Origin: Nitrospirota bacterium
Lineage (GTDB): Bacteria; Nitrospirota; Thermodesulfovibrionia; Thermodesulfovibrionales; UBA6898
Direction of reading: 5' to 3'
Length of the DNA: 64,000 nt
NCBI GenBank assembly: GCA_016214855.1
Contig: JACRMT010000007.1
Span: 1-64,000 of the forward strand
The notes under the pieces were generated by a model. That model was not told where the DNA came from. It ran no database searches and worked only from the letters and a program-made list of their open reading frames with translations. Within the stretch, counting starts at the first letter, position 1, and each line of letters starts with the position of its first letter. Below are positions 40,688-47,877 of this stretch, one piece after another. Made by a program: the position numbers and the translations under genes.

Positions 40688-43600
40688 TTAGGGGAAGAGG
40701 TTGCCGGCCCTGAGCACCTTCAGGTCCCAGGCAATATCTGCCGTGCTCTTTTGATTTCTGAAAGAAAGGGAGAGAGTATCCCGGTCAGGCATCAGCACAG
40801 TCCTTGGAAAGGCACAGTAGAACATTATTGATACAGGCTCTTCTTTTCTATAGAAGGTTTTAATACCCTTAACCTGTATATGCGTCAGCGGCTTTACCGT
40901 ATCTGCTCCTGCTGTCAGGGCGATAGCGGGATAGGGGTCATCGGCAATTTCGTCATCAAGTCCTTCCCGCGGAGAGCTGATGCTGACCTTAAAGTAAAGA
41001 TTATTCTGAAAATCAAAAAGTGCTTTATCTCCGGGAGCGTCTGATTTAAGAACAAGAGATTCGGTCAACAGTGTAGCCTGGAACTTGAGATCATCAGAAG
41101 CAGAAACCTTGGTGAGCAGGGAGAGCATATCGTTATAGGCCAGTTCTTTCCTTACCTCTTCCCTTGCCGCAGGCTTCAGCACAGGCAGACTGATAAGTCC
41201 GGCATTATACGCATAAAAAGAAAATCCGATACCCCCAAGCAGGATAAGAGCAAGAAGAGCATAAGAAAGCGAGCTCCTGCTTGCAGGCGATATTTTCTCG
41301 ACGCGTGCAGGAAGAGTTTCCTCTCTTTTCTCAAAAACAGGCGTTGGGGCTTCACGGTCAGCGCTCTGAGAGGCCTGGAGCTTTGATCTGAGCTCAGCAT
41401 TCTCACGCATGCCCTGCTCAAGCTTCAGCCGCAGGTCAGCCACTGCACTGCCATAGACCGCAAGATCAGCCTTAAGGACTCTGATCTCTTCCTCTTTTGT
41501 CCGGCTGAGCAAACTGATCTCGCCCTGCAGGCGGGCAATGGTCTTTGAGATATCATCATGTTCAGCGCTGAGGCGGCTGTTATCATGTCTGCTTTTATTA
41601 AGCTCATTCTCAAGGCTGCTGATCAGGGACCGGGCTTGATCCATCTTTTCCTGCTGACCCGCAACATTCCCGGCAAAATCTTTCTTTTCTGAAACCAGCA
41701 GGTTGATAGCCTGCTCTTTTTCAGCAAGATTTCTGTTCAGCAGGATGATTTCCTGTTTCAGATGCTCAAAGGCTTCTTTGTACTCGAGGGCAGTTTTCTG
41801 CAGCTCCGCCTTCTCAGTGTTCGCAAGACTTGTGATCTCCCGTTTTTCTGCTATCTTTTTCCCAAGCTCTGTCTGCGATGCCATCAGGACCGCTGCATTT
41901 TCCTGCAACGCGCTGATCTCTGCCCTGGCGTCTGACAGGGACTGCTCTTTCCGGCTGAGCTGAGATGCCAGACGGTCCTGCTCAAGGACAAGCTCATTGA
42001 TCTTTTCTGCGGCCTGCGCAAGGTCTTCCTCAAGGCCGGACTTTTCTTTGCGGGATACGTCAAGCAGACAGATATTCTCTGCGAGTTCTTTTTCCTGCTC
42101 CAGCCCCCTTGCTGTCAGTCTGTTCATCTCTTCATCCAGACGCATTCTTTCTTTCCTGAGCGAATCAGTCTGGTACAAGAACTCATTATTCTCATGCTCG
42201 CGCTCAGATGTCATGGCGGTGAGCAGCTCATTTTTTTCAAGGAGCTGCTGGTTCAGAAGGGCGATCTTCTCCCGCAACGCAGCCAGATCAGAGACATGTT
42301 CTGCCGTGGCACTTTCAAGCCTTGTCTGATATCCTGCGATCTCATTCCGGAGGTCTTCGACATCCCGGTCTTTTCCAGGGGTCTGATGCTCTTCAGAGGA
42401 CATGCCGGCAAGGAGTTCATTTTTTTCGAGGAGCTGCCGGTTCAGGACAGAGATCTGGTCCTCCAGTGCAGCATATCTGTCCGTCTGCTCCGACTCGGAC
42501 AGTTCGATCTTTTCCTCATATTCCCGCAGTCGTTTCCGGATCTCTGCTATGGTCCTGTCTTTTTCTGCTCCCTGCGCCTCTGCAGAAGCCAAAAGCGCCA
42601 ACTGTTCATTCTTGCCCAGGAGCTCCCTGCTCAGGCTGACGATCTGTTCCTGGAGATCAGCAATGGCATCTTCATGCTCCGCTGCCGCCTGCTGAGAGCC
42701 GGACCGAAGCCCGGAGATATCCTCCATAAGGTTATGGATCTGCTGATCGTTCCCGGCGACCGCGTTACGGAGAGCAACAGTATCATCCTCAAGTTTTTTG
42801 TTCGCTGCCATGGCATCCAGGAGCCTGGCCTCCAGATCGTTTTTCTCCTGCCGCTCCTTATCAAGCGCCTGGGCTTGACTGACTGCAGCAACCCTGAGGT
42901 CTTCGCCCTCTCTTTTCAGCAGGTCACGTTCATACACAAGGTTCTTGAGCGTAAGCTCATGGGCGCCATGCAATGCCTCAATTTCGTCCTTCTGCTTCTT
43001 GTAGTCCTGGGAGATATCGATCAGGAGCTCGTCCTTCCCGATCATCTCCTCGTTAAGCGCGGAGATCTTGACATTGAGATCAAACAGCTCTTTCGAGAAG
43101 AGGGAATTCTCTTCCATTTTCATGTCAATGGACATCGAGAGGGAATTTATCTTTTCAAGAAGTGCGGGGATCTTTTCATGGAGTTCGCTGTCTTTATGGC
43201 TGAGCTCACCGCTGAGGCGAACGACCTTGGCATTAAGCTCATCGATAACATGAATTCTGCTCTCAATGGCAGAGGTCAGCTCATCAATATCAGTCTTAAG
43301 CTCTGCGATCTCCCTGCTGTAATCATCAACCTTTTGCTGGAGATTTTCCTCAACATGTGTCTTATCCGCCTTCAGGTGATCGAGCTCGACCCGGCCATTG
43401 TACAGTTCAGCTCTTGCCTCATCCCGGTCCAGCTCGATCTCTGCGATCTGCGATCTGGCCAGTGACAGCTCGGTTTCGAGCCTTTCAATTCTGCCGGCCG
43501 CTGTCTTCAGGCTTTCTTTCGTCTCCTCAAGGTCAAGTTCGCCGATTGCAATGCTCTTCTCAAGGTCTTCAACCGTCTTAAGCAGAGATGCGAGGGATGC

Positions 43601-44170
43601 CTTGTGGCTTTCTCCTTCCCGGTCCAAGCCTGTCTGTGTGACCTGCTGGTCCCCGGTGCCTCCGGTCTCCGGTATCTTTCTCAGCCGTTCCTCAAGTTCT
43701 CTTTTTTCTCTCTTCAGAGACTTGACAGCCTGCCCGTCAACGCGAGAGATATTCTGCTGATCACGCTCCAGATTTCTGAAGATCGAGTCCTTTTCAGCGA
43801 TCAGCTTCTTATTGTCTGCCATAAGATTTTCGATCTTTTTCTTCAGCTCCGAGATCTCCATGTTCCGGAGAATGTCAAAATCAAGAAGCTTTTCTTTCAT
43901 GCTCTTATGGCTTGCGGAGAACTTCCGGAGCGAGAGGGTGAGTTTTTCTTTTTCCTCCTCAAGCCCCTTGATTATGTCGCTCTGCGACATAATGACAGAC
44001 TCAAGGTTATTTTTTTCTTTTGCAACAGTAAGGAACTTTTCGGTTATCGCTTCGGATTTATTATCAGCGGGTATTGGACATGCGGAAGGTTCACCCGCTG
44101 TGTGCGAAGCCGGGGGGATATTCTTCTCATCCGGTATTTTGTTGCCCTGCGTCTGAGAGGAGTCGGTCAT
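40688..44170 (-). CDS. 1160-residue coiled-coil protein with a C-terminal membrane anchor
   Basis: The protein is almost wholly predicted coiled coil from residue ~45 to ~940, rich in Glu/Lys/Leu. One membrane helix follows at ~970-990 (SYALLALILLGGIGFSFYAY) and then a ~170-residue domain, likely periplasmic, with many beta-strand-like segments. An internal repeat of about 63 residues occurs at least three times with the core LLEKNELL (QLLEKNELLAGM, QLLEKNELLTAM, ELLGKNEQLALL). Not a known family to me. Its sole near neighbour is the zinc-ribbon membrane protein. Confidence 0.85.
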   Translation of the reverse strand: MTDSSQTQGNKIPDEKNIPPASHTAGEPSACPIPADNKSEAITEKFLTVAKEKNNLESVIMSQSDIIKGLEEEKEKLTLSLRKFSASHKSMKEKLLDFDILRNMEISELKKKIENLMADNKKLIAEKDSIFRNLERDQQNISRVDGQAVKSLKREKRELEERLRKIPETGGTGDQQVTQTGLDREGESHKASLASLLKTVEDLEKSIAIGELDLEETKESLKTAAGRIERLETELSLARSQIAEIELDRDEARAELYNGRVELDHLKADKTHVEENLQQKVDDYSREIAELKTDIDELTSAIESRIHVIDELNAKVVRLSGELSHKDSELHEKIPALLEKINSLSMSIDMKMEENSLFSKELFDLNVKISALNEEMIGKDELLIDISQDYKKQKDEIEALHGAHELTLKNLVYERDLLKREGEDLRVAAVSQAQALDKERQEKNDLEARLLDAMAANKKLEDDTVALRNAVAGNDQQIHNLMEDISGLRSGSQQAAAEHEDAIADLQEQIVSLSRELLGKNEQLALLASAEAQGAEKDRTIAEIRKRLREYEEKIELSESEQTDRYAALEDQISVLNRQLLEKNELLAGMSSEEHQTPGKDRDVEDLRNEIAGYQTRLESATAEHVSDLAALREKIALLNQQLLEKNELLTAMTSEREHENNEFLYQTDSLRKERMRLDEEMNRLTARGLEQEKELAENICLLDVSRKEKSGLEEDLAQAAEKINELVLEQDRLASQLSRKEQSLSDARAEISALQENAAVLMASQTELGKKIAEKREITSLANTEKAELQKTALEYKEAFEHLKQEIILLNRNLAEKEQAINLLVSEKKDFAGNVAGQQEKMDQARSLISSLENELNKSRHDNSRLSAEHDDISKTIARLQGEISLLSRTKEEEIRVLKADLAVYGSAVADLRLKLEQGMRENAELRSKLQASQSADREAPTPVFEKREETLPARVEKISPASRSSLSYALLALILLGGIGFSFYAYNAGLISLPVLKPAAREEVRKELAYNDMLSLLTKVSASDDLKFQATLLTESLVLKSDAPGDKALFDFQNNLYFKVSISSPREGLDDEIADDPYPAIALTAGADTVKPLTHIQVKGIKTFYRKEEPVSIMFYCAFPRTVLMPDRDTLSLSFRNQKSTADIAWDLKVLRAGNLFP

Positions 44171-46007: not shown

Positions 46008-46082
46008 AACGCGATCGTTATTTTGATGTTAGCGCCTTGTCAGCCTTACGGCCTCCGATGACTGCAATGAGGAAGCTGCGTT

Positions 46083-46343
46083 TTATTTCTGTGAGGCCGC
46101 ATTCTGAGGCGCCACAATGACCATCTTCACCCACGGTATTTCAGCCTTGATCCTGTCACCTATGGCCCTGACCAGGTCCATGCGGGTCATATGTCAACGC
46201 CAGCAGTAGCCCGTAGGCCGTATCCGCACATCATGATCTTTAATGTCCACAAATTCGATATCGCCGCCGAGAGCCGTATAGTTAGGTTTCAGCTCTTCTA
46301 TGATCTGCTTGATTTTCTGAATATCTTTCTCTATATTTTCCAT
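46083..46343 (-). CDS. NifU-like protein with in-frame UGA (candidate selenoprotein)
   Basis: The frame from ATG 46343 runs 49 codons to a TGA at 46194-46196 and, if read through, 36 more to TAA at 46083. It encodes the NifU C-terminal fold: LGGDIEFVDIKDHDVRIR, then TGYCWR-U-HMTRMDLV, then EIPWVKMVIV. The family has CxxC here; the UGA replaces the second Cys, giving CxxU. A hairpin with loop GGUC lies 20 nt after the UGA (46162-46181). AAGGAG precedes the ATG. A one-base nonsense mutation from Cys is the alternative. Confidence 0.72.
46162..46181 (-). other. SECIS-like hairpin after the UGA
   Basis: On the minus strand AUGGACCU pairs with AGGGCCAU in seven Watson-Crick pairs and one A-G mismatch, with a 4-nt loop GGUC. 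The loop's first G is the 21st base after the UGA. The loop matches the GGUC of the E. coli fdhF SECIS (which sits 18 nt after its UGA). It could be a chance fold in a coding region. Confidence 0.5.
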
Positions 46344-46393
46344 GAGTCTCCTTTTTAAAAATAAGCAAATAATTGTAACAGATTGGAGCTACT

Positions 46394-46897
46394 TTGGACA
46401 TGCTTGAAAGTATAAAGGCCCGGCGCAGCGTCAGGAAGTTCACATCAGATCAGGTTCCTGATGACCTGATAGCAAAGATCCTTGAGGCCGGGCGATGGGC
46501 GCCATCAGGTCTGAACAATCAGGCCTGGCGCTTTGCTGTTGTAACGGATAAAGCAACCATTAAAAAGATCTCCGGACTGACCCGCTACGCGAAGATAGTG
46601 CTTGCCGCGCAGGCGCTGATACCGGTATTCCTTGATACTGCCAGGAGCTATCACCGGGAGAAGGACATTCAGTCGATCGGCGCCTGCCTGCAGAACATGC
46701 TCCTTGAAGTTCACGCTCTCGGACTCGGTGCTGTCTGGCTCGGCGAGATCATTAAGAGCAGCGAACCGATAAAACAGCTCCTCGGCCTGCCTGAGGAATT
46801 GGAACTTATGGCTGTGATCGCTATGGGATATCCTGATGAAACGCCGCGTTCAACAAAAAGAAAAGAACTGAAAGAGCTGATCGTGTACCGCGATTAG
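46394..46897 (+). CDS. nitroreductase-family protein
   Basis: The 167-residue FMN protein has the signature IKARRSVRKFTSDQVPDDLI, WAPSGLNNQAWRF and the C-terminal MAVIAMGYPDETP. Members reduce nitro compounds, quinones or enones with NAD(P)H. A TTG start at 46394 has GGAG 5-6 nt upstream; ATG 46400 has poorer spacing. Substrate unknown. Confidence 0.92.
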   Translation: MDMLESIKARRSVRKFTSDQVPDDLIAKILEAGRWAPSGLNNQAWRFAVVTDKATIKKISGLTRYAKIVLAAQALIPVFLDTARSYHREKDIQSIGACLQNMLLEVHALGLGAVWLGEIIKSSEPIKQLLGLPEELELMAVIAMGYPDETPRSTKRKELKELIVYRD

Positions 46898-46935: not shown

Positions 46936-47877
46936 TCAGCCTTTCATGGAAACTGCTGATGAAGGCTGGAAATTCTTCCCCTGGACCGTATCCCTGGCCA
47001 TGAGGTTCTTTTCAATGTCGCTCAGGATCTGGTGCCTGTTCTTCCCCCATACAGGCGCGATGAGGATGTCGTCAGGCGCGGTCGCAAAAAGCCGCTGGAA
47101 CACGATATGCGGTGCGGTCCTCTCCATAAAATCAACCACAAAATCGAGATATTCCTGGTATCCGAAAACCGGGAACGGATGGTCTTTATACATTTCTGCC
47201 AACGGCGTGTCCTTAACGATCTGCAGTTGATGCACCTTCAGGAACTCGATCGGCAGCAATGACATCTCTTCAGCCATGGCAAGCGTTTCCTGGCGGGTCT
47301 CGGTCGGGAATCCTGCTATAAGATGAGCTCCGATATGGATGCCCCTGTCTTTAGTCATCTCTACGGCCCGAAGGAACGCCATATAATCGTGGCCCCGCTG
47401 AATGAAATCGAGGCTCTTGTCATGCATTGACTGAAGCCCGTATTCGATCAGAACAAAGTATTGCGAGGCAAGAGATTCGAGCATCCTGATCTTCTCCGGA
47501 TCAACAGCATCCGGCCGTGTGCCGATCGCAAGACCTATCACGTCAGGCTCAGAGAGGGCTTCTCTATAGAACCTTTCCAGTTCTTCAACAGGGGCGTATG
47601 TATTGGTATAGGCCTGAAAATAAACAAGGAACTTTGCTGCCTGGAAACGTTTTTTTGTATGACTGATGCCGTTTCTTACCTGCTCGGCGATGGCCAATGA
47701 GGGCTTGCAGGAGCTTGGTCTGAAACTGTCGTTGTTGCAATAAATGCAGCCCGAGAAGCCGAGCGTCCCGTCCCTGTTTGGACAGGTGAATCCGGCATCC
47801 ACATTGACCTTGTAGACTGTCGTGCCAAAGGTCCTGCGCATATGGGCACCGAATGAATTATATCTCTGCATGGTCAA
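46936..47877 (-). CDS. radical-SAM protein of the YhcC/TIGR01212 family
   Basis: The 313-residue protein has the family's unusual cluster motif CPNRDGTLGFSGCIYC and the following NNDSFRP. Other motifs are RTFGTTVYKVNVDAGFT and KVHQLQIVKDTPLAEMY. No reaction is established for the family. TTG 47877 has AAGGA 6 nt upstream, while ATG 47871 is 12 nt away. Confidence 0.9.
   Translation of the reverse strand: MTMQRYNSFGAHMRRTFGTTVYKVNVDAGFTCPNRDGTLGFSGCIYCNNDSFRPSSCKPSLAIAEQVRNGISHTKKRFQAAKFLVYFQAYTNTYAPVEELERFYREALSEPDVIGLAIGTRPDAVDPEKIRMLESLASQYFVLIEYGLQSMHDKSLDFIQRGHDYMAFLRAVEMTKDRGIHIGAHLIAGFPTETRQETLAMAEEMSLLPIEFLKVHQLQIVKDTPLAEMYKDHPFPVFGYQEYLDFVVDFMERTAPHIVFQRLFATAPDDILIAPVWGKNRHQILSDIEKNLMARDTVQGKNFQPSSAVSMKG

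Follow-up and report, generated by a model that had tools for sequence, protein, structure and literature searches.

The Nfu domain, which forms the C-terminal part of NifU, carries a CxxC motif that binds a [4Fe-4S] cluster at the homodimer interface (PMC5014551). Oxidised plant NFU proteins form an intramolecular disulfide that is reduced by thioredoxin (PMC6210436), and both iron-sulfur and redox chemistry are therefore known at the Nfu CxxC site. Among selenoproteins, the HesB-like protein (TIGR01911) is likewise of the iron-sulfur-assembly type, carries selenocysteine (Sec), and is listed as experimentally verified (PMC13188914), but it belongs to a separate family with the motif UxGP and is not an Nfu protein. 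The SELENOW-like, AhpD-like, MvhD/VhuD, and HdrA selenoproteins share CxxU with the protein described here (Sec-Nfu) but differ from it in fold and partners. None of the 119 prokaryotic selenoprotein families inventoried in a 2026 review is NifU or Nfu (PMC13188914), and NifU is unmentioned in the deep-Sep paper (PMC12013277) and in a 2022 review (PMC9312934).

We analysed a stretch of 64,000 nucleotides from a Nitrospirota bacterium (the window), in which the following elements were located.

46083..46343, minus strand: putative Sec-containing Nfu-domain gene, 86 amino acids including Sec50, from ATG to TAA
46194..46196, minus strand: in-frame UGA predicted to encode selenocysteine, within CWRU, at the second position of CxxC; UGA in 22/22 members of the family
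46348..46353, minus strand: ribosome-binding site AAGGAG, 4 nt before the ATG

The frame opens with ATG at 46343-46341 and comprises 49 codons, TGA at 46196-46194 (codon 50), 36 further codons, and TAA at 46085-46083. When the minus strand was read again, the start codon, the upstream AAGGAG, and the codon counts given in the preliminary description were reproduced exactly. The read-through product is MENIEKDIQKIKQIIEELKPNYTALGGDIEFVDIKDHDVRIRPTGYCWRUHMTRMDLVRAIGDRIKAEIPWVKMVIVAPQNAASQK, and annotation under the standard code stops the gene at the UGA. Judged from sequence comparison, Sec is almost certainly inserted at UGA codon 50, which would make the product a genuine selenoprotein. The protein consists of a stand-alone Nfu domain, of the kind found at the C-terminus of NifU, and Sec would take the place of the second cysteine in its CxxC.

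Domain assignment was carried out with Pfam and NCBIfam models. The NifU model PF01106 matched residues 11-76 (E 1.2e-14, 54.6 bits against a gathering cut-off of 27), in agreement with the NifU C-terminal scaffold that had been claimed on either side of the UGA, and in alignments the codon fell, also as claimed, where ordinary Nfu proteins have the second cysteine of their CxxC. Scores for NifU proper (TIGR02000, 40.8 bits vs 273.3) and NfuA (TIGR03341, 20.9 bits vs 269.35) were below the equivalog cut-offs. The two-Cys CxxC of the Nfu domain was absent, and CxxU was found in all 22 members; the family was therefore filed as a Sec variant of PF01106 and not as an ordinary Nfu carrier. In the phylogenetic tree, the Sec clade (22 proteins) stood apart from 14 ordinary Nfu domains of the same order with a support of 100/100, and the root of the clade is uncertain because long branches meet between its third group and the Cys proteins, as a program warning indicated. 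The AlphaFold model (pLDDT 84.8) found its best Foldseek matches in CnfU (2z51) and human NFU1 (2m5o), and placed CxxU at the start of helix 2. Sec-Nfu thus has the domain, the fold, and the position of the CxxC site in common with Nfu proteins such as NfuA, NFU1, and CnfU, but it differs from them in the Sec that stands for the second Cys, in the HxTR that follows instead of PxS, and in forming a clade separate from the Cys proteins tested. The surroundings of the UGA were conserved as G[YF]CxxUHxTR..LV, and 13 positions were invariant in 19 aligned members (D7, I11, G27, I41, G45, C47, Sec50, H51, T53, R54, L57, V58, and W71). With HxTR where the canonical P/S residues would follow the second Cys, Sec-Nfu may differ in its chemistry, and that of ordinary Nfu proteins should not be taken for granted.

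Two genes of the window lie next to the Sec-Nfu gene on its upstream side.

46936..47877, minus strand: MnmL/YtqA, tRNA-modification radical SAM protein (TIGR01212, E 4.9e-93), the upstream neighbour
46394..46897, plus strand: nitroreductase-like gene between mnmL and the Sec gene, with its best NCBIfam matches below cut-off

The order mnmL/ytqA followed by the Sec gene on the same strand was seen in 12 of the 14 loci of the order, the other two being located at contig ends. No gene stood between them in G006, G034, G104, and G105, and 8 loci of the family had the nitroreductase-like gene in between, in opposite orientation. The third group did not keep the link to mnmL; there, proS was located upstream of the Sec gene and ispG before proS. 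Eight relatives had mnmL and no Sec gene, and the locus showed no sign of one. The adjacency suggests, without proving, that MnmL is a candidate client of Sec-Nfu. On the other side of the gene, just 3' of it, the window holds an apparent short remnant, KRSFLIAVIGGRKADKALTSK, of a TIGR00725-family gene (46033-46082, minus strand), and a longer gene of this family lies directly downstream of the Sec gene in G001, G004, G005, G009, and G016. Elsewhere in the window, a 423-codon open frame (42194-43465, plus strand) runs antisense to a 1160-aa coiled-coil gene (40688-44170) and is probably a by-product of the repetitive composition of that gene.

As to function, two readings have about equal odds: an iron-sulfur carrier that uses selenium as a ligand, and a redox protein that works through its selenol. 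We lean slightly and tentatively towards a dedicated iron-sulfur carrier, since Sec-Nfu has kept the fold together with both ligand positions, and the gene most often found beside it encodes a radical-SAM enzyme. In such a carrier, a [4Fe-4S] cluster at the dimer interface would be ligated by the CxxU of each of the two subunits, in the manner of the Nfu CxxC, and its clients might be radical-SAM enzymes, MnmL from the adjacent gene among them. In a more specific form of this proposal, a real possibility though short of probable, it may be that a mixed Cys/Sec-ligated [4Fe-4S] cluster is held on a dedicated Nfu carrier and delivered to a specific client such as MnmL.

A real possibility, also short of probable, is that Sec-Nfu is a selenol/thiol oxidoreductase or peroxidase and not an iron-sulfur carrier. 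The chemistry would then fall to the selenolate, which lies with CxxU at the start of helix 2 in the model, beside the invariant His51, Thr53, and Arg54 that stand after Sec in place of the canonical P/S residues, and Cys47 would act as the resolving residue. The nitroreductase-like gene adjoining in 8 loci fits such an enzyme, and a redox role is presumed for most of the selenoproteins that await characterisation (PMC13188914). Against it stand the Nfu fold with both cluster-ligand positions retained, and the main neighbour, which belongs to an enzyme class requiring a [4Fe-4S] cluster. It is unlikely that Sec-Nfu carries selenium itself, with SelD or the 2-selenouridine of tRNA position 34 as possible destinations; the host uses selenium and the gene adjoins mnmL, whose product modifies position 34, but the third group has no mnmL neighbour.

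Whichever function applies, decoding of the UGA would follow the known route, in which SelB and tRNA-Sec would read a SECIS hairpin just downstream and insert Sec at codon 50. Such an element was recognised in the window.

46164..46179, minus strand: SECIS-like apical hairpin with arms 46179-46174 and 46169-46164, loop GGUC 46173-46170, and invariant GU 46172-46171, marked by compensatory changes and synonymous constraint

In the window copy, the arms GGACCU and AGGGCC enclose the loop GGUC with one A.G mismatch in the stem, and the loop was found at 20 nt after the UGA, the distance first reported for it. In Escherichia coli fdhF, the GGUC/GU loop starts 18 nt after the UGA. The Sec-Nfu hairpin resembles the fdhF-type SECIS in its place just 3' of the UGA and in its GGUC/GU loop (20 nt vs 18 nt), but its stem has only 6 pairs and is of low stability in the window copy. 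Folding energy of the segment 46150-46196 of this copy showed no excess over shuffles (z +0.65). The 22 hairpin copies were then compared. Standard pairs occupied 123 of 132 pair cells, the loop GU was present in 22/22 copies, and, by lineage, pair 4 was C-G, A-U, or G-C and pair 6 was G-C, A-U, or U-A. The 13 distinct hairpins formed 73 pairs vs 64.7 ± 2.0 when the right arms were randomly dealt (0 of 20,000 as high), in a shuffle that ignores relatedness and lets each sequence have a loop of either 4 or 5 nt; arms slid by +1 still gave 117 pairs vs 123. We take the covariation test as supportive of a hairpin and not as proof. Independently of the pairing, codon identity between members at positions with the same amino acid was 0.76 in hairpin codons +5 to +10 vs 0.47 elsewhere in the gene. 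The claim of a SECIS-like hairpin was weak from one sequence, but covariation and synonymous conservation now back it.

A search of the source genome for the Sec machinery, as the preliminary description had advised, recovered all four genes: selA (615.9 bits) and selB (375 bits) side by side on contig 20, tRNA-Sec (70.9 bits, anticodon TCA) on contig 12, and selD on contig 2 (G000:C2:175951-176877, L086). The selD gene carries an internal TGA, and its product is probably a selenoprotein itself. Of the 21 other genomes with a member of the family, 18 gave a tRNA-Sec match at a strict limit. G005, G011, and G243 gave no match, of which G005 and G011 do have selB, and G002 has tRNA-Sec and no selB match over cut-off; these missing matches probably reflect incomplete draft assemblies. 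Two tRNA-Sec matches each were obtained over the Rfam cut-off in G008, G010, G021, and G057, where the second copy is unusual. It is highly improbable that suppression places a residue other than Sec (Trp, Cys, or Arg) at the UGA, or that the codon acts as a regulated stop. The conserved downstream frame implies readthrough itself, and nothing specific favours such a residue; the full Sec machinery including tRNA-Sec, the GU-loop hairpin directly 3' of the UGA, and the location of the UGA exactly at a conserved Cys position, a typical Sec/Cys exchange, all speak against it. Members of the family differ in terminal stop codon and length, and several use TGA as their ordinary terminal stop, which rules out reassignment of the code.

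Homologues were collected by searches that read through UGA, all of them within Nitrospirota. A six-frame search of 60 relatives returned 11 further homologues (58-90% identity), each with UGA at the site, and a DNA motif accepting TGA, TGC, TGT, or TGG at this codon added two members from the same order and eight from another Nitrospirota order, again all with TGA. Results showed that UGA occupies the same codon in 22/22 Sec-Nfu genes (window copy included), distributed over three families and two orders. A profile HMM run on 176 genomes of the order retrieved 14 members, and in every one of them a single internal TGA was present. No Cys orthologue was found by the TGN motif (176 genomes of the order, 396 of the phylum) or by the HMM (order), the Cys octapeptide GYCWRCHM had no exact match in a scan of genome contigs, and nothing was found on plasmids or in viral contigs. 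The sole TGT match (L106 in G179) was attributed to chance, its frame containing stops, and a 29-residue match in Woesearchaeota (L010) is likely due to chance as well. In a further copy in G007 (L023 / L090), a two-N assembly gap removes residues ~15-48 and the site itself. The comparison with homologues that had been called for thus yielded none with Cys, and the downstream frame in relatives was intact and conserved, with no fragmentation seen. Because all 22 members keep the UGA, its occurrence by chance is excluded. Mutation of a Cys codon to UGA, after which the gene would be a pseudogene or encode a peptide cut short at 49 residues, has next to no probability: ordinary Nfu proteins have Cys at the site and UGC or UGU is one base step from UGA, but the UGA, with conserved protein on both sides, persists in all 22 members across three families, and a point mutation is thereby ruled out. 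On these matches, the family is one that extends beyond the source genome to several groups of uncultured Nitrospirota. The Sec-containing NifU-like protein inferred in the preliminary description is therefore supported by the shared UGA, the hairpin, the machinery, and the Nfu fold.

Sec-Nfu is apparently an undescribed selenoprotein family on a known fold, served by a known insertion mechanism. NCBIfam 20.0 contained no selenoprotein model matching it, and the open-licence literature yielded no relevant report of NifU or Nfu as a selenoprotein. The doubt voiced at the outset about a settled selenoprotein family of NifU type was well placed, the family being absent from the inventory of PMC13188914 and from NCBIfam 20.0. 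Earlier searches based on Cys/UGA pairs probably overlooked it, we infer, as our searches met with no close Cys counterpart and its hosts are for the most part uncultured. In this family Sec sits where Nfu proteins ligate a transferable iron-sulfur cluster, which makes concrete the question of whether selenocysteine can act as a cluster-transfer ligand, and with what gain, and the mnmL neighbourhood supplies a candidate client. If a Cys/Sec-ligated cluster is indeed delivered to MnmL, selenium supply would be linked to the maturation of iron-sulfur enzymes.
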